Below are positions 1,548 to 35,065 of a DNA stretch of 35,065 nt, in pieces. Within the stretch, counting starts at the first letter, position 1, and every line of letters begins with the position of its first letter. The stretch spans positions 1-35,065 of the IMG/VR virus record IMGVR_UViG_3300025087_000219; one strand, 5' to 3'. The notes beneath the pieces were generated by a model. It was given only the letters and a program-made list of their open reading frames with translations. It made no database searches and had not been told where the DNA came from. Source of the DNA: a virus. A program made the translations under genes and the position numbers.

Positions 1548-3116
1548 TTAAATGTCTTGTTCATCATTGACCAGCCAAATCTTTATTTGCTCATCAGAAA
1601 ATCCAAAGCCGTCTTTTAGAAGGCTGGCAGCCTGCTCATAAGTGAGCTCCGCCTTCTTATATTTTCTGGTTATCCTGAAAACCCCCTGAAGTTGCCTACC
1701 TGTTAGATTTGTTAGAGTGTCGTTAACTTCCGGCGGTTCTCCTGCTGGTTGCCCTCCTGGCGTCAAAGCTCCCGCACCTATCATTCTGCGGGCGGTTTCT
1801 TCAGCAAATCCGTAAATCTCAACAAGGATAGTAATTGCGCTTTCCGGTGTGGTTGTTTTAGCTGCAAGACCTGCAAGTATAGCCATAATCCCATCAACCC
1901 CACCTACCGTGCCTTTTAAGGCAGCTTGAGCAGTTTCCCTCGTTTCGATTGATTTCTGCTGAATCTCTTGAGGTGTCAACTGTTCTTTATTCGCGCTAAA
2001 TTTTTTCGGCTGTATTTGAATTTCTTTAACAGGAAAAACAGCGTAACTCAGAACCTTACTCAGCACCTTCTCAACTTCCTTGCGTTCGGTTTCGGTCTGT
2101 GAATTGTAATAGTTGAATGCATCCGCAAATGATTCCTTGTTAAACATCCCTGAAGTTGCTACCCCGTTTAAAATCGGAGGTTGCCGGAATGCTGCGTAGA
2201 TGTTGAATTTTGCACGCTCGATTTGATTCGTATGAAGAGAGTCAATGTTATTGCGTGAAATCGGAGTGAACCATTTCCAATTAGTAAGATTTTCGGAAGG
2301 AATAGCACCAATTACCCGGATACCCCCGGCGTTTTTGCTTCCCATGTCCTCCTTAAGTTCAGTTTTAATGTTGTCTAGTTCGCCTTTATCCGTGATATTT
2401 TTCGGATAGCTTAGGATTCCAGCTAATGAGTAGTCGTTCTGAATGCTTGAAAGCGAGTAGAGTTTCGATTCAGCTTCAAATTGTGCATCGTCAAGAACGC
2501 TATCCCACAAACAGGTGCAATAGTAATCTTTCAGGTTCGGAATCCAGTAGAAAATTTGGCCCTTGTATTTTGAAATATCCCCACACTGCTTAATTTCAGC
2601 AAGCACCTGATCAGGGTTAAACGGCTGGTACTCGATCTCTTCTTTCCTGCGATTCCTTCTGGCCCAGTCAGGGTTAACGACATAGCGTTTCAAGTCTTTG
2701 CTCCAACGCACAAACTCGAAGTTTACCGGGGTAATCTCTGTGATTTGACCAAGTAAGTTATAGTTGAAGTGTAAAGCAAAGCCCCTGAACATTGAACGGG
2801 AATCTGCTATATGCCGGATAATATCCCAAAGTGTCTGCTCTTCTGAATTAACGACGGTGTCCATCCCCGCGAACCCCTCGCCTGAAATAAATGCCGATAG
2901 CGTGCCGATAGCTGAAGACGTGGTTCCAGAACGGGCTGCAATAGACTTGACTTTATTCGGGTAAAGGTTATCCCTGTCATAAGGGATTATCCTGTCAGCA
3001 GGAAAAGCGATATTAACATACAGGCGTTCTACGAATAGGGTGCGCTGGATAGAATTAACGGCGATTTTATAACCGCCGCTCTCTTCCTGTGTCAATATCG
3101 TGGGGCCGTTGTTCAT
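1548..3116 (-). CDS. Portal protein
   Basis: A 522-residue protein of typical portal length. The N-terminal half includes IPYDRDNLYPNK (about residue 44), where the portal fold usually begins. A middle part has conserved-looking FRQPPILNG and a following NKESFADAFNYYNSQ segment, comparable to the stem/wing region of phage portals that select the protomer helix. The C-terminus is helical and Thr/Gln-rich. Twelve copies should form the vertex ring through which the terminase pumps DNA. It overlaps the upstream gene by one base (TAATG). In this genome it lies after the capsid gene rather than next to the terminase, which is unusual. Confidence 0.8.
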   Translation of the reverse strand: MNNGPTILTQEESGGYKIAVNSIQRTLFVERLYVNIAFPADRIIPYDRDNLYPNKVKSIAARSGTTSSAIGTLSAFISGEGFAGMDTVVNSEEQTLWDIIRHIADSRSMFRGFALHFNYNLLGQITEITPVNFEFVRWSKDLKRYVVNPDWARRNRRKEEIEYQPFNPDQVLAEIKQCGDISKYKGQIFYWIPNLKDYYCTCLWDSVLDDAQFEAESKLYSLSSIQNDYSLAGILSYPKNITDKGELDNIKTELKEDMGSKNAGGIRVIGAIPSENLTNWKWFTPISRNNIDSLHTNQIERAKFNIYAAFRQPPILNGVATSGMFNKESFADAFNYYNSQTETERKEVEKVLSKVLSYAVFPVKEIQIQPKKFSANKEQLTPQEIQQKSIETRETAQAALKGTVGGVDGIMAILAGLAAKTTTPESAITILVEIYGFAEETARRMIGAGALTPGGQPAGEPPEVNDTLTNLTGRQLQGVFRITRKYKKAELTYEQAASLLKDGFGFSDEQIKIWLVNDEQDI

Positions 3117-3569: not shown

Positions 3570-4124
3570 TTAAGGAGCCAGAAGTGTCAGAATATCAAAG
3601 GTGCTTTCAATCAACTGTGGCGGATCGATCTCAGGCGGGTCATTCTCAGGCGTTTTGATAACGATCTGGAAACTTCCCCCGGTATCGGCATCCCCAGGCA
3701 TCATCTGGAAGTCACTCATGCGAAGTCCTACCCTGCGGCCATACATCATTGATTTTCCGTTAACCAGCGGGACCAATACCACGACTTTCTGAAACCTCAG
3801 TTTCTTAGCGGTGTTAACGCTAAGTTGAGTAGCATCCACAATTCGCATGTCGAGTGAGTGATCAAACCCGTCAATGGCAGATACACCCCGAAATGGACTC
3901 GAAGGTATGATTTGCGCAGAACCTTTTGAAGATTCAAACTTGTAGGCGTATGTTCCGGTATCGAGGGTTATTGTTTCAATTTCTTTAGAAACAGCATCCT
4001 CAGTAATAGCTCCTGCGTCCAAGTCATCTTTATTTATCAGCAGGGCATAGTTTCCTATTCCCCCCTGTACGATAGCGTCGCCGTCAAAGGCGACTCCCCT
4101 ATCTATTTTAACGTTTGTGCTCAT
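3570..4124 (-). CDS. Unknown virion-cassette protein, 184 residues
   Basis: A beta-rich protein without signal peptide or membrane helix. The N-terminus (VKIDRGVAFDGDAIVQGG) and the alternation of short strands through residue 150 suggest a compact structural domain. The C-terminus is acidic and proline-rich (TPENDPPEIDPPQL). It lies between the two signal-peptide proteins and the portal-proximal genes. A head decoration, connector or tail-tube-like role is possible, but no diagnostic motif was recognised. Start and stop fit the operon, with nine bases to the preceding gene. Confidence 0.7.
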   Translation of the reverse strand: MSTNVKIDRGVAFDGDAIVQGGIGNYALLINKDDLDAGAITEDAVSKEIETITLDTGTYAYKFESSKGSAQIIPSSPFRGVSAIDGFDHSLDMRIVDATQLSVNTAKKLRFQKVVVLVPLVNGKSMMYGRRVGLRMSDFQMMPGDADTGGSFQIVIKTPENDPPEIDPPQLIESTFDILTLLAP

Positions 4125-4133
4125 GGCAGTAAT

Positions 4134-4517
4134 TTAGTATTTTAAATAGTATCGTACATTACTGAAATAACAGGTATCCCCGGTTTCCCCGTCACCCCAA
4201 AGTCTGTAATACTTATAACGAGGTGGTGTCTGGTACAACTCATGATTGACAGCAGTAGAACCTGTTACAGATACGGTGTCAATCGGATACCAGGCAGAAG
4301 TATTGTAACAGCCTTGCAGAACCACCGTAGCGGTGTCGTGCGTAGTAGTGAACACAAACCCGGCAACTCCCTGATAAATACTGGCATCTTTCGAGCCGGT
4401 AAAATACACATTTTCATTGCCGTGCGTGGTGTCCGCTACGAAGACCTGGTTTGCAGCCTGCGACCACCCGGAGGCGGTCACAAGAGCAAGACATAAGATC
4501 AGGATCAGGTTTTTCAT
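4134..4517 (-). CDS. Secreted protein, paralogue of the 134-residue neighbour
   Basis: A 127-residue protein with a clear Sec signal peptide (basic MKN, hydrophobic core to about residue 16, SGWSQA cleavage region) and a beta-sandwich-like mature part. It shares with the upstream gene the pattern D-T-A-T-V-x-L-Q-G followed by a Trp and a C-terminal Y-x-Y-Y-R-L ... Y-F ending, so the two genes are duplicates. The signal predicts export across the host inner membrane, which is unusual for a gene between capsid and portal. The mature domain could bind the cell surface or the outside of the virion. Its start overlaps the preceding stop by four bases. Confidence 0.75.
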   Translation of the reverse strand: MKNLILILCLALVTASGWSQAANQVFVADTTHGNENVYFTGSKDASIYQGVAGFVFTTTHDTATVVLQGCYNTSAWYPIDTVSVTGSTAVNHELYQTPPRYKYYRLWGDGETGDTCYFSNVRYYLKY

Positions 4518-4918
4518 CTTTTGTAAATAAATACTTTATACCTAAAATAAGCAGTATCAGCAACCTCGTAAGCCCGTTTATATAGTCGGTACTTTAAATA
4601 AGTTGCGGGACTTGCTGATAATTGATACTTCGTATAAACAGCAGATGCACCCTGAATATGAGTTGTAGTGCTGATAGTCTTATAAGAAACCCAGGCATCG
4701 TTTGACCCCTGGAAATCGACATATACAGTGTCATTCTGCGCTTTCCCTTTAACGTCAAAATCGAACGTGATAAATCCGTTATAAGGAACAGAAACTGTTG
4801 AAGTTGTTATAGCAGTATCGCCGTTAATCGTATCAGCAGCGAAAGTCTGAAATCCCTGTTGTGCGCTTGCGGTCATAGCTACTACGACCAAGAAAGCTAA
4901 AATTATAAATTTTTTCAT
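4514..4918 (-). CDS. Secreted protein, first of a paralogous pair after the capsid gene
   Basis: A 134-residue protein with a strong signal peptide (MKK, hydrophobic residues 4-16, TASAQ cleavage site after about residue 19) and a beta-rich mature domain ending in Tyr/Lys/Arg. It starts two bases after the major capsid stop. Segments D-T-V-Y-V-D-F-Q-G-S, a following Trp, Y-L-K-Y-R-L-Y and A-Y-F-R-Y align with the next gene. Position suggests a capsid-associated or decoration-like protein, whereas the signal suggests delivery to the periplasm or cell surface. I do not recognise a named family. Confidence 0.75.
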   Translation of the reverse strand: MKKFIILAFLVVVAMTASAQQGFQTFAADTINGDTAITTSTVSVPYNGFITFDFDVKGKAQNDTVYVDFQGSNDAWVSYKTISTTTHIQGASAVYTKYQLSASPATYLKYRLYKRAYEVADTAYFRYKVFIYKR

Positions 4919-4920
4919 GA

Positions 4921-5862
4921 TTATGCAGGTGTATAAAGTAACAGTTCTTCAGCAACGCGGTAGTTGGCATCAGCTTTGTAATCCAGTCTTAAAAACCAAA
5001 GACGGGAATTGTTGGCCACTTTGTCAACGACTACGCTTTCGGCTTCGGGATCAACCCAAACTCCCAGGTTCAGGTTTGAATCTTCGCCGGCAGTAACTTT
5101 CGCACCGATGATATGGTGACGGGTTAAGCCCTGGAAGTGCTTGATTCTTTTTTGCTGATACATGGTCTCCATGTTCATCCCGAAAACTCCGACAAAAGCT
5201 TCTTTGAGCTTAGTGTTCCCAGCTTGCATTGTCTTCCAGTCGGTTGTGTTCACGTGAAGAACAAAGTCAGGATCGTCAATGAACTTATCAGGGATTGCAG
5301 CCCAGCAAGCGGCCAAAATGTCAACAAAGCTCTGGTCTGTGATGTTTCCGGCCGGAGTGGGTTTGATAACGTTTGCGTCAAGAATGGCCCTTGTGATAAT
5401 CCCGTTGAACTTATTCAAAGGGTCAGCGGCTGCAAGAAGCAGATCACCCTGCCAGAACAGTTTCGCCATTTGCGTTCCAATTCCGTTTTTATACAAGTCA
5501 AGGATTGCATTCAAAAGTTGAGCATTTAGCTCAAGGTTCGTGAAGTCGCCGACAGATTTCCAAATCTGCCAAACATCGTGAAATGTAGTCGGAAGGAATG
5601 TCTCGTAAACCGTCATCGGGTGAACAACAAGCTCCCTTTCGGCATAAGTTGTTGTCGCAGTAACTCCTGCGGGGGCCCCCACCTGATAGTCGCCTATCGG
5701 GTCGGCAGTCTGGCTCAACCTGGGAAGAGCTTTTTTCGTAGAAATGTCAGTATGCAGTTTAGCTGCTCCTTTACTGGTAACCTCGTTACCAACGCCGGTT
5801 ACAAGGTAAAGGTTCTCCAGAACCTCACCATTGTAATTTGTATTTGAAAGTGTCAAGCTCAT
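4921..5862 (-). CDS. Major capsid protein
   Basis: A 313-residue protein directly after the protease-scaffold gene (three-base gap), the canonical place for the coat protein. It has a flexible N-terminal arm (residues 1-60), a long helical and mixed core and a C-terminal segment (LWFLRLDYKADANYRVAEEL), consistent with an HK97-fold shell protein. No signal peptide or membrane segment is present. It should assemble with the portal into the procapsid and mature after proteolysis by the upstream ClpP-like domain. Identification rests on size, composition and neighbours. Confidence 0.82.
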   Translation of the reverse strand: MSLTLSNTNYNGEVLENLYLVTGVGNEVTSKGAAKLHTDISTKKALPRLSQTADPIGDYQVGAPAGVTATTTYAERELVVHPMTVYETFLPTTFHDVWQIWKSVGDFTNLELNAQLLNAILDLYKNGIGTQMAKLFWQGDLLLAAADPLNKFNGIITRAILDANVIKPTPAGNITDQSFVDILAACWAAIPDKFIDDPDFVLHVNTTDWKTMQAGNTKLKEAFVGVFGMNMETMYQQKRIKHFQGLTRHHIIGAKVTAGEDSNLNLGVWVDPEAESVVVDKVANNSRLWFLRLDYKADANYRVAEELLLYTPA

Positions 5863-5865
5863 GGC

Positions 5866-6903
5866 CTATGCTTTTCTGGATTCGTTAATTGCTTTGAAAA
5901 TTCCGTCAGTCACTTCTTTGACTTTGGAATGAGGGTCGGGCACTTCTGCTTTTCCGGCTGTCACAGTACCTTTTACAGGTTTGTGAGTGCTGGAAATTTT
6001 TCCAAGTGCTTCAGTAAATTCAGCCCTTACTGCATCCACGGCAGCAGTTACAAGGGGAGCGACAGCTGCAACAATAGCCGCAACTTCTGCATTTGCAGCA
6101 GGTGCAGGTTCAGCAGCTTTTTCAGCTACCTCGGTGATTACTCCACCGGCTACGCTGATCTTGCGACCGTCAGCCAGTTCATAGGTTCCATCTTCTAAGG
6201 TCATTGCTCCCAAAGGGGCAACCTCCACGCCCGTAGCAGGTTCGGATGCGTTAATCAAAACGCTCTTGCCGTCCTTCAGGGCTAACACATTCATGACATC
6301 GAGTTTTTTCCCTTTGTCTTTTGAAAAAATGTTCATCTTTTCTTTTAATTTAGTTATTAATAAATCACTTACTTTTCCTTGTGCCGTTTCCAAAAGGACG
6401 GAGGCGGCTATCTTTGTACCGGATGAAACGATCCGGTCAACAAATCCATATTCAAGAGCTTCGACAGGGCTGAGCCAGTCAGAAGCTTTCATTAAATCTT
6501 TAATTTTCTGGTCTTCAAGTCCGGTGGATTCACGGTAAATCTTGACCATTAGTGCATCGGTCTTCATAAGATCGGAAGCGGCTTTCTGCATATCAAACAC
6601 ATTCCCGGTCTGTTCTTTCCACCCGTTGTGAACTAAGAAAAGAGCGTTATCAGAAATTGATCTTTCGTCACAAGCAACAGAAATAACAGTACCTGCGCTT
6701 GCGGTAAGTCCTACGATATTAGCTGTTGTGTGTTGTGGATGAGACCGGATAAGAGAATGAATGGAGATTGCTGTTGCCAGGTCTCCACCTAAAGTTGAGA
6801 TGTCAAATTGGACGGGTTCGGATTTATTAGCGTTAAGGAATGATCTAACACCTTCTAAAGTGATTTCCTCCCCAACCGTTCCAAAAAGCTCCAGAATTTT
6901 CAT
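5866..6903 (-). CDS. ClpP-type prohead protease fused to scaffold-like C-terminal domain
   Basis: A 345-residue protein. Residues 1-170 form a ClpP/S14-type serine protease with DISTLGGDLATA (about 34-45), the nucleophile Ser in TASAGTVIS (about 67-75) and the catalytic His in LFLVHNGW (about 88-95). A later acidic residue in the helix after it completes the triad. Residues 190-345 are Ala/Glu/Lys-rich and helical, like a scaffold or delta domain; a Met at the end of the linker (KEKMNIF) could give a separate scaffold product by internal initiation. Known members mature the procapsid and remove themselves. A promoter-like TTTG-N20-TAATTTCG ends five bases before the ATG. Confidence 0.88.
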   Translation of the reverse strand: MKILELFGTVGEEITLEGVRSFLNANKSEPVQFDISTLGGDLATAISIHSLIRSHPQHTTANIVGLTASAGTVISVACDERSISDNALFLVHNGWKEQTGNVFDMQKAASDLMKTDALMVKIYRESTGLEDQKIKDLMKASDWLSPVEALEYGFVDRIVSSGTKIAASVLLETAQGKVSDLLITKLKEKMNIFSKDKGKKLDVMNVLALKDGKSVLINASEPATGVEVAPLGAMTLEDGTYELADGRKISVAGGVITEVAEKAAEPAPAANAEVAAIVAAVAPLVTAAVDAVRAEFTEALGKISSTHKPVKGTVTAGKAEVPDPHSKVKEVTDGIFKAINESRKA

Positions 6904-16270: not shown

Positions 16271-17500
16271 TTATAATGCTTTAGTAAACACGTGATACCA
16301 CCAATCAGTCCCATCTGAATAAACCCGGTACACAAGGGCCGTCCCGTTAGTATCTTTGATAAAGAACTGATAACCTGCACCCGCCGTGCTTGCTGTCAAT
16401 CCGCTTGCAGAATTTAATTCTGTTGCCGTAGGCGTCGCATCGGTTAAGGCTGCTGTGACGTGAAGGGTTTTTAACTGTCCTGCTGCAACAACATTCCCAG
16501 TGCCGGTGACTTTGAATTTTTCAGTTGTCTTTATAAGCAACATAAGCGTATCGCAATTTGAAGACACTCCATAATAAGGAATTGACCGTAATCCCGAAGT
16601 CTGCGAATGTGTTCCAGGTGCATCAGCCCCGGATGTTACATTTACACAAGCTGAAGCATTTATCCCGGATGTAGAGTTATAACTTCCGTAAGCCCCTGTA
16701 TCTGCTGTCAGGTTGAAAGTTCCGTAAGCATCTTTATTGTAAGTTATGTTATATGATGCGTGTGCTGCCTGTCCGTAAGTTTTAGTATATATACCATAGC
16801 GACCCACCGATGTCCCAGCATAGCTTGAGTTGACAACCAGCGCAACGGAATCTGAAGAGTTGATCTCAGCTCGTTTAATAAAAAATTTCCCTCCGCCTGT
16901 AATAGTGCTAACCTCCGTAGCTCCGTTTCTAAATCTAATTAATTTCTCTGTATATGATAAATCAGCTCTATTAGTGCCTCCATCACTCTTATACCCAATT
17001 AACGCGATAGCTGCATTACTTCCCATTGTTGTCCCTGAATAGCCGGTAAGGCTTAATGCACTTATTATCGGGGAATTTTTTGAAAAACCAGTTAAATTAA
17101 GACCACCAGATGTTGAACTATTGCCGGAAATTAACCCTATCGTATTAGTCGTGATTTGCGCACTGAACACGGATGAATAATCTGGTACTGTTACATCTAA
17201 ATCATGTAATTGCCAAGCTGGAATAACTGATCCGCTTGATGAAATAATTCCGTACCCGGTAAAAACAGGATTATACCTGCTTAAATTTCTTTCCCCCGTC
17301 CCATCACCCAAATAAAGCGAATCCCCGGAAACTCTCATCCAAGCCATAGCGTCACGGGATGAGTTGGTAATGTCCACCCTCGTACCCTTAACTTGAAGGG
17401 TATCCATCTTAGCTGTGGACTTTGAAGACTTGTAAATGAACTGAGCCTGAAGACTTAACCCCATCCCGGCTATAACTGCTAAAATCAGAATTTTTCTCAT
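16271..17500 (-). CDS. Signal-peptide-bearing fibre-like protein
   Basis: A 409-residue protein with an N-terminal Sec signal (MRK, hydrophobic residues 4-17, LQAQ cleavage region). It is followed by Ser/Thr/Gly-rich beta repeats (for example GSYNSTSGINAS and related units near 270-300) and a C-terminal knob-like segment with TELNSASGLT and GTDWWYHVFTKAL. The shaft-plus-knob design is that of a tail fibre, but the export signal is not expected on a virion part assembled in the cytoplasm. It may be displayed on or secreted from the infected cell, or the signal-like start may be a hydrophobic anchor. It lies in the fibre cluster, 15 bases after the preceding gene. Confidence 0.7.
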   Translation of the reverse strand: MRKILILAVIAGMGLSLQAQFIYKSSKSTAKMDTLQVKGTRVDITNSSRDAMAWMRVSGDSLYLGDGTGERNLSRYNPVFTGYGIISSSGSVIPAWQLHDLDVTVPDYSSVFSAQITTNTIGLISGNSSTSGGLNLTGFSKNSPIISALSLTGYSGTTMGSNAAIALIGYKSDGGTNRADLSYTEKLIRFRNGATEVSTITGGGKFFIKRAEINSSDSVALVVNSSYAGTSVGRYGIYTKTYGQAAHASYNITYNKDAYGTFNLTADTGAYGSYNSTSGINASACVNVTSGADAPGTHSQTSGLRSIPYYGVSSNCDTLMLLIKTTEKFKVTGTGNVVAAGQLKTLHVTAALTDATPTATELNSASGLTASTAGAGYQFFIKDTNGTALVYRVYSDGTDWWYHVFTKAL

Positions 17501-24217: not shown

Positions 24218-24373
24218 TTAAAGTCCGTTATCTGCATCTGAGTAACATTGTCCGGTGCAATCAGTATAGAGATCATTCCACCACTCAGGAGTTTTAATCC
24301 CTACTAATTTAGCTTGCCTGATTATTTCAGGTCTTCGCTTTTCGATTCCGTCCTGAATTTCTTTACGTGTCAT
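24218..24373 (-). CDS. 51-residue Cys-containing protein
   Basis: An ATG at 24373 overlaps the stop of the 67-residue gene by four bases (ATGA), and the frame ends at TAA 24218. The product begins MTRKEIQDGIEKRRPEII and ends GQCYSDADNGL, with two Cys and a TPEWWNDLYTD segment. It fills an otherwise empty 170-base stretch. No family recognised. Confidence 0.5.
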   Translation of the reverse strand: MTRKEIQDGIEKRRPEIIRQAKLVGIKTPEWWNDLYTDCTGQCYSDADNGL

Positions 24374-24573
24374 TTCAGATAATTTTCTGCGTTAATAGTC
24401 ATAAAGTGATTCAGTTTGCCTACATTAAACTTTTCGTGATAGGTTATCATGTCCACATGCTTAAATATAGCATTGGCTATCTTAGTAGCCTTATTTAATT
24501 CAAATGCCTGGATTATCACGTAATGATAGCGCAGGACAGAGATATGCCGGAAGGTGACGTGGAAGTGTTTCAT
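24370..24573 (-). CDS. 67-residue His-rich protein
   Basis: A 67-residue protein with seven His, beginning MKHFHVTFRHISVLRYHYVII and ending NAENYLK. The start follows a structured leader sequence (24596-24665). Charged and aromatic residues alternate in a short beta-alpha pattern. Function unknown; the size is close to small anti-host proteins, but nothing is diagnostic. Confidence 0.5.
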   Translation of the reverse strand: MKHFHVTFRHISVLRYHYVIIQAFELNKATKIANAIFKHVDMITYHEKFNVGKLNHFMTINAENYLK

Positions 24574-24595
24574 TTTTATTATGTTTTTCCACCCG

Positions 24596-24665
24596 AAAAC
24601 CCCGGCTCTCTCATCGAAAGTCCGGGGCTACCGTCTGCTAAGATTAGCAGAACTTAGCAGGGGTT
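24596..24665 (-). ncRNA. Candidate structured leader RNA or terminator
   Basis: On the minus strand TCTGCTAA-TC-TTAGCAGA (24651-24634) forms a perfect 8-bp hairpin. Then CCCCGG-A-CTTTC-GATGA-GAGAG-CCGGGG (24627-24600) forms an 11-pair stem (one G-T pair), followed by TTTT. The outer AACCCC (24665-24660) can pair instead with GGGGTT (24603-24598), so alternative folds compete. It lies right between two small genes. It may be a weak terminator, an attenuator or a separate RNA. Confidence 0.5.
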
Positions 24666-24912
24666 AAAAATCTGAATTCATAAACTCCGCAAGGGTCCTA
24701 CTGTCGTCATCATTTATTATTTTCTGGTATTCCATCCCAAGGGTTAATAAAAATGCTGATTGAGTATCTGAAATAGAAACCTCTCCATTTTCATCAATCG
24801 AAATCGAATTATTCGATATATGGCTCCTTATCTCAGTGTTGTGGATAGCCTGTTTGAAAGTTTCGATAAAATCTTTATCAATACTAATTTTTTCCGATGT
24901 GGTCGTTTTCAT
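24664..24912 (-). CDS. Unknown acidic protein, 82 residues
   Basis: I chose the ATG at 24912 (MKTTTSEKISIDKDFIETF); the longer frame to 25113 would overlap an AT-rich gap with a promoter, and its upstream part is unlike protein. The product is acidic, with ISIDENGEVSISDTQ and a final MEYQKIINDDDSRTLAEFM. A promoter-like sequence lies 39-70 bases upstream, giving a leader of about 30 bases. Function unknown. Confidence 0.6.
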   Translation of the reverse strand: MKTTTSEKISIDKDFIETFKQAIHNTEIRSHISNNSISIDENGEVSISDTQSAFLLTLGMEYQKIINDDDSRTLAEFMNSDF

Positions 24913-24950
24913 TTTGCTAATTTTTAAGTGAATGTTTCTGTTTGATGAAG

Positions 24951-24982
24951 TAAAGATACGACCGAAATACCCTCTATGCAAA
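24951..24982 (-). promoter_or_regulatory. Candidate promoter before the 82-residue gene
   Basis: On the minus strand TTTG (24982-24979), 20 bases, and TATCTTTA (24958-24951) match the Bacteroidota consensus except for the last base. It stands in the 98-base gap after the 81-residue gene, and the transcript would start roughly 30 bases before the ATG at 24912. The good spacing and place make it one of the better promoter candidates here. Confidence 0.55.
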
Positions 24983-25010
24983 TTTTTAGTCAAAGGTTTC
25001 AGTACGTTGG

Positions 25011-25256
25011 TCAAATAAACAGTCTGAAATTTTGCACGAGCTTTGTAAACGCCGGATTTTTCTCCCGCATTTTCTGGATTTCGAAATAAACATCTAAGTC
25101 TATTTCCACACATTTCAGGAATTCGCAGAGTTCAGGGGACAGCTTTGAAATTTTAAGTGTTTCGCCTGAGATGGAATCTATAACTTCCATACTCCTGATC
25201 AGAATGCCCTCCGGGGTAACTTCTGCTGTTTTTATTATTAAGCGGGTGTTGCTCAT
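25011..25256 (-). CDS. Unknown protein, 81 residues
   Basis: MSNTRLIIKTAEVTPEGILI at the start, then VIDSISGETLKISKLSPELCEF and a charged C-terminus (RE-K-NP-AF). A short beta-rich N-terminal half precedes a helical C-terminal half. Its ATG overlaps the stop of the VRR-NUC gene by four bases, so the two are co-translated. No function recognised; a partner of the nuclease is one idea. Confidence 0.6.
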   Translation of the reverse strand: MSNTRLIIKTAEVTPEGILIRSMEVIDSISGETLKISKLSPELCEFLKCVEIDLDVYFEIQKMREKNPAFTKLVQNFRLFI

Positions 25257-34283: not shown

Positions 34284-34859
34284 TCATTTCTTAACTATCT
34301 GTATTTCACGTGTATAGCTTTCTCCACATTCTGAGTCTGAGTTTACGAAAGTTTTTTTCTTGCCGAAATGAATAAACCAAAAATGCCGGGACCGTTTCCA
34401 GTAGTATATATTTGTTGTCTTATTTTGGTAGGTGAAGTCCTCCCTGGTTACCGAAAGCAAGTTATCAGTAAGCGAAGCAGTCCCCTTCCACAGCCAGCAA
34501 GCTCCAAAATCCTGAATTTCCCAAATCTTAACTTCTCCCTGGTTCTCTACCGGTGTGATCTCAGTCGCTTGACTTGAAGTATCCGAAACCACCTGAGTAA
34601 CCTCAACGGTGCGAATAATCTTTTTTGGCTTCACCTTAAGTGCATTTGCGAGGCTATCGAGCTTCAAGCCGGAAATACTGTCAGTTTGTTTTAAAGTTAA
34701 ATTAAGAGCCTTATAATGGCTGTTTTCAGACAGCAAGTTATTGACGTTCTCGATTTGCGTGTCCCGGTCTTTTTTGAGGTTGCTGATTTGAGCAATGAGA
34801 AACCAAGCAAGCAGCCCCATCCCTGCAATAACAGCGAATAAAATTATTTTTATTTTCAT
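34284..34859 (-). CDS. Membrane-anchored periplasmic protein, spanin-like
   Basis: A 191-residue protein. One N-terminal hydrophobic helix (about 4-24, MKIKIILFAVIAGMGLLAWF at the start) acts as membrane anchor, and a coiled coil follows (about 26-75, with SNLKKDRDTQIENVNNL). The outer domain is beta-rich with TNIYYWKRSRHFWFIHFGKK and two Cys (DSECGES and GACWLW). As the last lysis gene it may act like an i-spanin or other late lysis protein. It resembles DUF6808-type proteins near phage lysozymes; this is recalled, not tested. Its ATG overlaps the endolysin stop by one base. Confidence 0.6.
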   Translation of the reverse strand: MKIKIILFAVIAGMGLLAWFLIAQISNLKKDRDTQIENVNNLLSENSHYKALNLTLKQTDSISGLKLDSLANALKVKPKKIIRTVEVTQVVSDTSSQATEITPVENQGEVKIWEIQDFGACWLWKGTASLTDNLLSVTREDFTYQNKTTNIYYWKRSRHFWFIHFGKKKTFVNSDSECGESYTREIQIVKK

Positions 34860-35065
34860 TAGAAATGTGTATTTGAAACCCTGTTTAACCAGCCTTGTAA
34901 AAATCCTGCATTCCGGGGCTTTTCTGCTATTTTTCTATAATACAAAATTCTGGCAGTTTTAAAAGCATCGAGAAAATCAGGAAAATTATTGATAGCGTAT
35001 TTTGAAATAGGCCCTAATTTCCCGTCAGCTTTCACTTTAACAAGCCTTTGAGCTATTCTGATTGA
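34859..35065 (-). CDS. Endolysin, GH108-type lysozyme (C-terminal part)
   Basis: This is the remaining part of the lysozyme that starts at 423, in the same frame. Beyond the repeat it adds 24 residues including KPRNAGFLQGWLNRV, a C-terminal helix typical of GH108 lysozymes, and ends in TAA at 34861-34859. That stop overlaps the ATG of the next gene by one base (TAATG), a coupling seen repeatedly in this genome. The clean in-frame junction is good evidence that the contig is circular. Confidence 0.9.
   Translation of the reverse strand, partial: SIRIAQRLVKVKADGKLGPISKYAINNFPDFLDAFKTARILYYRKIAEKPRNAGFLQGWLNRVSNTHF
34934..35065. repeat. Terminal direct repeat, right copy
   Basis: Second copy of the 132 bp end repeat. 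At the mismatch this copy encodes Tyr and the left copy Asn, in the context Ile-Leu-Tyr-(Tyr/Asn)-Arg of the endolysin. The YYR version is the more typical sequence for this lysozyme family, so the right copy is probably the correct one. Confidence 0.95.

Follow-up and report, generated by a model that had tools for sequence, protein, structure and literature searches.

Genome organization and the genes downstream of the capsid gene

The window is the whole 35,065-nucleotide stretch of IMG/VR record IMGVR_UViG_3300025087_000219, a 35 kb tailed-phage record whose recognisable genes all lie on the minus strand. Its ends carry a direct repeat of 132 bases (1-132 and 34934-35065, 99% identical); the record therefore probably represents a complete or circular genome, with the endolysin gene split where the ends meet. 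The morphogenesis genes run in the order ClpP-like protease, capsid, A, B, 184-aa protein, 116-aa protein and portal (Table 1), which confirms the placement of two related genes directly after the capsid gene, at 4134-4918 on the minus strand, made in an earlier note based on the sequence. Both genes start with ATG and are tightly coupled to their neighbors: a gap of 2 nt separates the capsid stop from the start of A, and the stop of A overlaps the start of B by 4 nt (ATGA). A database search gave no identification for the 184-aa neighbor of B. A Bacteroidota host fits the record names of the capsid relatives in the genome collection (33/34 named Bacteroidota, one only 'uncultured bacterium') and the closest phage records, which are those of Bacteroides phages.

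Table 1. Features of the window around the capsid gene and in the tail module
Feature	Coordinates	Strand	Remarks
Portal protein	1548..3116	(-)	phrog_11226, E 4e-55
Conserved 184-aa protein immediately past B, without signal peptide	3570..4124	(-)	
Protein B, 127 aa, tandem paralogue of A; Cys 70, 116	4134..4517	(-)	AlphaFold2 pLDDT 88.6; 8/11 contigs
Predicted signal peptide of B, residues 1-19, MKNLILILCLALVTASGWS, Gln20 at +1	4461..4517	(-)	
Protein A, 134 aa, first gene past capsid: predicted signal peptide and jelly-roll domain	4514..4918	(-)	AlphaFold2 pLDDT 90.5; 11/11 contigs
Predicted signal peptide of A, residues 1-19, MKKFIILAFLVVVAMTASA, Gln20 at +1	4862..4918	(-)	
Major capsid protein	4921..5862	(-)	phrog_11320, E 3e-34; hankyphage p00-like, ~26% identity
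ClpP-like head maturation protease	5866..6903	(-)	
409-aa fibre-like protein, tail module	16271..17500	(-)	Q-rule signal peptide residues 1-19, 17444-17500

A and B are a duplicated pair found in close relatives

Sequence comparison supports the proposal that A and B arose by duplication, as the homology extends to the mature parts of the two proteins. They share 33% identity over their full length (BLASTP E 2e-13). For the mature parts, the Smith-Waterman score is 98 (Z 11), whereas 1000 shuffles average 32 and none exceeds 60 (0/1000); the profile-profile probability is 98% (E 1.4e-14). The shared motifs listed in the earlier note are exact, reading NDTVYVDFQG...W...YLKYRL in A and HDTATVVLQG...W...YKYYRL in B, but the Y-x-x-Y-R-L element described there as an ending lies ∼20 residues before the C-terminus.

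The search for relatives that the note had proposed recovered ten related viral contigs with an A homologue after the capsid gene, their capsid proteins being 76-88% identical to that of the window; a fragment identical to the window was left out. Counting the window, A directly follows the capsid gene in 11/11 contigs and B is present in 8/11 (7/10 relatives), which yields a homologue set of 19 proteins. Outside this clade, neither a DNA search around A and B in 50,697 phage records nor protein searches with A or B returned a match, and Pfam, PHROGs, NCBIfam and PADLOC offered no usable family. A pattern scan of the genome collection, run with the B alignment only, the A alignment being too divergent, gave no confirmed B relative. 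Among the more distant capsid relatives, a profile search of the 14,564 ORFs of the fetched loci found no further member of the A/B family, and the same ORFs contain no A/B relative without a signal peptide. A fold or family missing from such match lists was not counted as proof of difference.

Conserved Q-rule signal peptides

The N-termini of A and B each combine a Lys/Arg n-region, a hydrophobic core (Kyte-Doolittle 3.6-3.8) and an A/S-x-A/S site followed by Gln. Under a home-made consensus rule combined with conservation across homologues, all 19 homologues show the same arrangement of Lys/Arg n-region, hydrophobic core, small-x-small and Gln at +1. In a 17-sequence alignment, only Met1 and Gln20 are invariant within the first 30 columns, a pattern with which both proteins of contig L090, which lies outside that alignment, also agree. 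Mean pairwise identity in the signal region is only 47% for A and 42% for B, so the Gln at +1 looks selected rather than merely inherited. Two alternative start codons inside the hydrophobic core, Met15 of A and GTG13 of B, were rejected for lack of conservation.

This arrangement corresponds to the Bacteroidetes-specific Q-rule, in which signal peptidase I (SPI) exposes a Gln that glutaminyl cyclase (QC) converts to pyroglutamate (PMC5837995; PMC10653852); it covers >60% of the SPI substrates of P. gingivalis (PMC5837995). With a Q-rule signal peptide in 19/19 homologues and capsid relatives in Bacteroidota, the Sec export claimed in the earlier note is well supported, and A and B are very probably exported. 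Of the two destinations that the note had allowed, the periplasm is favored, whereas display on the surface of intact cells appears less likely before lysis, since there is no lipobox, the mature part is all-beta, and no type IX sorting-domain model occurs among the Pfam and NCBIfam matches up to E 1. Spanin features are likewise absent (Gln at +1, no lipobox, and a mature part that is all-beta in both models). Cysteines 70 and 116 of B are kept in every copy seen and, if they form a disulphide, would suit an oxidising periplasmic compartment.

Fold and relation to post-capsid cement proteins

Structurally, AlphaFold2 predicts a jelly-roll-type beta-sandwich for both proteins, with a signal helix (2-18) followed by about nine strands; structure prediction had been among the checks suggested in the note. 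Among solved structures, A matches best to the porphyran-binding carbohydrate-binding module (CBM) 8xmz (Z 10.8; B, Z 10.7), and equally high scores against A or B come from GOLD domains, TNF-like lectins, PirA and XepA. B aligns with the N-terminal domain of XepA at Z 10.7 (104 residues, rmsd 3.3) and A at Z 9.0, in both cases tied with unrelated folds. Ties of this kind indicate a widespread fold and say nothing on function.

The best BFVD matches of A are small uncharacterised phage proteins, including V5YTA7 of Pseudomonas phage PPpW-3 (TMt 0.73), which is taken to be ORF-7 by its length (115 aa) and 'hypothetical' annotation, not by accession. ORF-7, of the phrog_5707 family, is encoded two genes after the PPpW-3 capsid gene and has no signal peptide. 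In Synechococcus phage S-CBS1 a member of its family immediately follows the capsid gene, and in Serratia phage MQ-4 and Xanthomonas phage Murka the members are encoded close to it. Profile comparison links A to this family (probability 61%, E 8e-5) with a score of 30.4, compared with a column-shuffle maximum of 18.9 (0/150). When the A profile is run against the 14,564 ORFs, its best non-family matches are three ORF-7 family members (E 0.002-0.04; next 0.84). The contrast that the earlier note drew with normal, cytoplasmic virion genes is therefore apt, the best non-family matches of A being post-capsid proteins without signal peptides. The B profile alone shows no link to the ORF-7 family.

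ORF-7 in turn resembles Bbp16, at a sub-threshold E of 0.017 against the Pfam model and, for the family profile, at an hhalign E of 1.4e-4; a combined A+B profile compared directly with Bbp16 is not significant (E 0.09). A PDB sequence search with ORF-7 returned designed ankyrins only, which were rejected as a composition artefact. Bbp16 is the jelly-roll cement protein of Bordetella phage BPP-1; its gene adjoins the capsid gene, and the protein is uncleaved and required for phage production (PMC3863775). In gene order, bbp16 follows bbp17. Like the ORF-7 family and Bbp16, A and B are predicted jelly-rolls of about 110-140 residues encoded just past the capsid gene, and they share with the ORF-7 family the V-x-L/F-Q-x-S-N/D-D motif and, for A only, a weak profile similarity above shuffles. 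Unlike ORF-7 and Bbp16, which have no signal peptide, A and B carry predicted cleavable Q-rule signal peptides. The chain from A through the ORF-7 family to Bbp16 is thus suggestive at the profile level, and the relation of A to post-capsid cement-like proteins is supported but weak; a general beta-sandwich resemblance may account for the similarity despite the shuffle controls.

Rapid divergence of A

A is the fastest-diverging of the compared neighbors. In most relatives it shares 37-66% identity with its counterpart in the window, compared with 76-88% for the capsid, 56-68% for B and 69-83% for the 184-aa protein. The copy in contig L009 gave no tblastn match to the A of the window; this allele and that of L014 are ∼23-25% identical to it, next to capsids at 87% and 76% identity, which points to replacement of the allele or to very rapid change at this gene alone. 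For comparison, ORF-7 retains 63% identity where its capsid is 80% identical, and 34% where its capsid is 48%. Post-capsid proteins of the ORF-7 type thus change faster than their capsids as well, and A does so to a greater degree. Such fast change would be compatible with an arms race as well as with surface exposure.

A second locus with predicted export signals, in the tail module

Comparison of the window with four related contigs reveals a second conserved site of predicted export. At a syntenic position in the tail module, a fibre-like protein bears a Q-rule signal in 4/4 readable genomes (409 aa in the window, 840 aa in the contig of L009, 401 aa in that of L010 and 747 aa in that of L013), while the position in L016 falls at contig ends. 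The flanking genes are homologous across genomes. In the 401-aa protein, matches to tail-spike and structural proteins from other phages fall within residues 69-248. After the signal, the 840-, 401- and 747-aa proteins begin with a common N-terminus, QLDITKR, and then diverge; a conserved N-terminus with a divergent remainder looks like the layout of attached fibres. These proteins are unrelated to A and B yet bear the same Q-rule signal, a hint that the outer parts of the virion may follow one scheme. In the contig of L013 (G004, 24287-25162), the gene of the exported fibre-like protein is adjoined by that of a Q-rule sialate-O-acetylesterase-like enzyme (L138; Pfam SASA, E 3e-14), which, by its family match, may cut acetyl groups off host surface glycans.

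Proposed role of A and B

The earlier note had suggested that A and B block receptors, attach to virions after lysis or exclude other phages; all three roles are hypotheses here. A capsid-exterior role is favored by the position of the genes, their operon coupling and their likeness to post-capsid jelly-roll proteins; such a role, combined with export, leads to attachment at lysis. The homology of A and B, their operon position, the conserved Q-rule signals and the fold were all established in silico. In the proposed sequence of events, A and B would be late proteins of the capsid operon, synthesised as Sec precursors. Host signal peptidase I would cleave them and expose Gln20, which host glutaminyl cyclase would probably cap as pyroglutamate. 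The mature jelly-roll of ∼110 residues resembles, by fold and position, post-capsid proteins of the cement/decoration type, and the phage would in effect have shifted an outer capsid layer to the periplasm. A (and B) would build up there while cytoplasmic capsids fill, and lysis would mix the two compartments, allowing the proteins to attach to the capsid exterior. Cleavage, capping, periplasmic accumulation and virion binding are steps that we infer. Taken as a whole, this chain, in which A and B derive from cement proteins, undergo maturation in the periplasm and encounter virions upon lysis, is a tentative reading, preferred over each alternative although its chances fall short of even.

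Several observations count against it. The known cement proteins, Bbp16 among them, are unprocessed and cytoplasmic; B lacks the ORF-7 link; A+B against Bbp16 falls short of significance; and the fold is common. The divergence of A, far above that of the capsid, and the lack of B in 3/11 contigs would be odd for an essential cement layer. The main alternative is a role in the host envelope, in which A and B would act as periplasmic superinfection-exclusion or receptor-modulating proteins that bind an outer-membrane receptor from its periplasmic side (e.g., a TonB-dependent transporter) or another envelope part. By analogy with T5 Llp, the receptor would be closed to further phages and progeny would not be trapped on debris. 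Llp is a small exported lipoprotein whose gene adjoins that of the receptor-binding protein, and which jams FhuA from the periplasm (PMC9586334); A and B are similarly small, predicted to be exported and encoded among virion genes. An export signal kept in 19/19 homologues fits this role, as do the fastest divergence among the compared genes and the divergent L009/L014 alleles, as in arms-race proteins, and placement in the capsid operon permits late expression that protects progeny. However, A and B have Gln at +1 where Llp and Cor lipoproteins have a lipobox Cys, and so have no membrane anchor; they adjoin the capsid gene and not a receptor-binding protein gene, and exclusion creates no need for a gene a few nt past the capsid gene in every relative. 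PADLOC returned no match, and the fold resembles that of post-capsid phage proteins. Exclusion is ranked second, as a serious but rather unlikely alternative.

Secreted adhesins that bind envelope or polysaccharide in the manner of CBMs, acting on the host surface or beyond the lysed cell and taking no part in the virion or in exclusion, come next and are improbable. The best solved match of A is indeed the porphyran-binding CBM, CBM and lectin folds are abundant, and one relative encodes the Q-rule esterase-like enzyme beside its exported fibre, but the fold is generic, there is no convincing sequence match to a carbohydrate-binding family, and neither a pre-lysis route across the outer membrane nor a type IX sorting-domain match was found. 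The two remaining alternatives rank equally, both at a very low probability. One would make A and B lysis helpers like XepA of the B. subtilis prophage PBSX, that is, exported beta-sandwiches absent from the virion that perturb the membrane before or at lysis. XepA is a phage-exported, cytotoxic beta-sandwich protein absent from particles (PMC6834076), B matches its N-terminal domain, and in distant capsid relatives the region past the capsid gene contains lysis genes or encodes a holin-like protein that bears a signal peptide. Yet the structural match is a tie common to many unrelated proteins, with no sequence relation found between A or B and XepA. XepA has two domains, forms pentamers and belongs to a lytic cassette, and its N domain alone is inactive, whereas A and B are predicted to be soluble single domains. 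They also lie outside the candidate lysis set of the phage, which, from translations read by eye, comprises the endolysin and small membrane proteins at 1-1026 and a spanin-like locus at 34284-34859. The other alternative dispenses with export: A and B would take part in cytoplasmic head assembly, the N-terminus serving as a membrane-contact or assembly element or being cut by the phage head protease. A ClpP-like head protease is encoded two genes upstream of A, and for capsid proteins of P. gingivalis phages that have signal-like N-termini, prohead-protease cleavage was proposed (PMC10367356). An invariant Gln at +1 behind small-x-small is, however, the signature of host SPI and QC, and a phage protease leaves it unexplained.

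Relation to earlier reports and wider implications

Assembly of tailed phages is usually regarded as entirely cytoplasmic. A conserved export signal on A, B and the fibre-like proteins would mean either that virion parts exit separately or that virion-type folds are reused in the host envelope. The broader proposition, that these phages export both the A/B cement or decoration layer and tail-fibre-like proteins through Sec, SPI and glutaminyl cyclase, so that virions are finished only at lysis and are pyroglutamate-capped, is doubtful at present. The Q-rule provides a clear signature for A and B, namely pyroglutamate at residue 20, and would yield a simple sequence criterion by which envelope-acting or late-attached proteins could be picked out among the many unannotated genes of Bacteroidota phages.

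Q-rule proteins of unknown function were described in 2023 for Nixviridae phages of Porphyromonas gingivalis, so that phage-encoded Q-rule export is not new (PMC10367356). A and B are comparable to those proteins by description, not by sequence, as predicted Q-rule proteins of Bacteroidota phages; unlike for A and B, the passages on them describe no cement-like fold or post-capsid pair. A search of the open-access literature found no cement- or fibre-like virion-type proteins with Q-rule signals at a conserved post-capsid or tail locus.

The capsid locus itself varies among distant relatives. Many of these have a longer capsid ORF of ∼400 aa (in hankyphage p00, L005 12001-13224, annotated with a BACON domain); in the window clade, a capsid protein of 313 aa is followed by the separate A and B jelly-roll proteins. 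Hankyphage p00 also encodes, downstream of its capsid and lysin genes (L005 13701-14087), a small multi-span holin-like protein with a Q-rule-like signal N-terminus, annotated only as 'hypothetical'; its multi-span, holin-like character led to its rejection as a relative of A and B.
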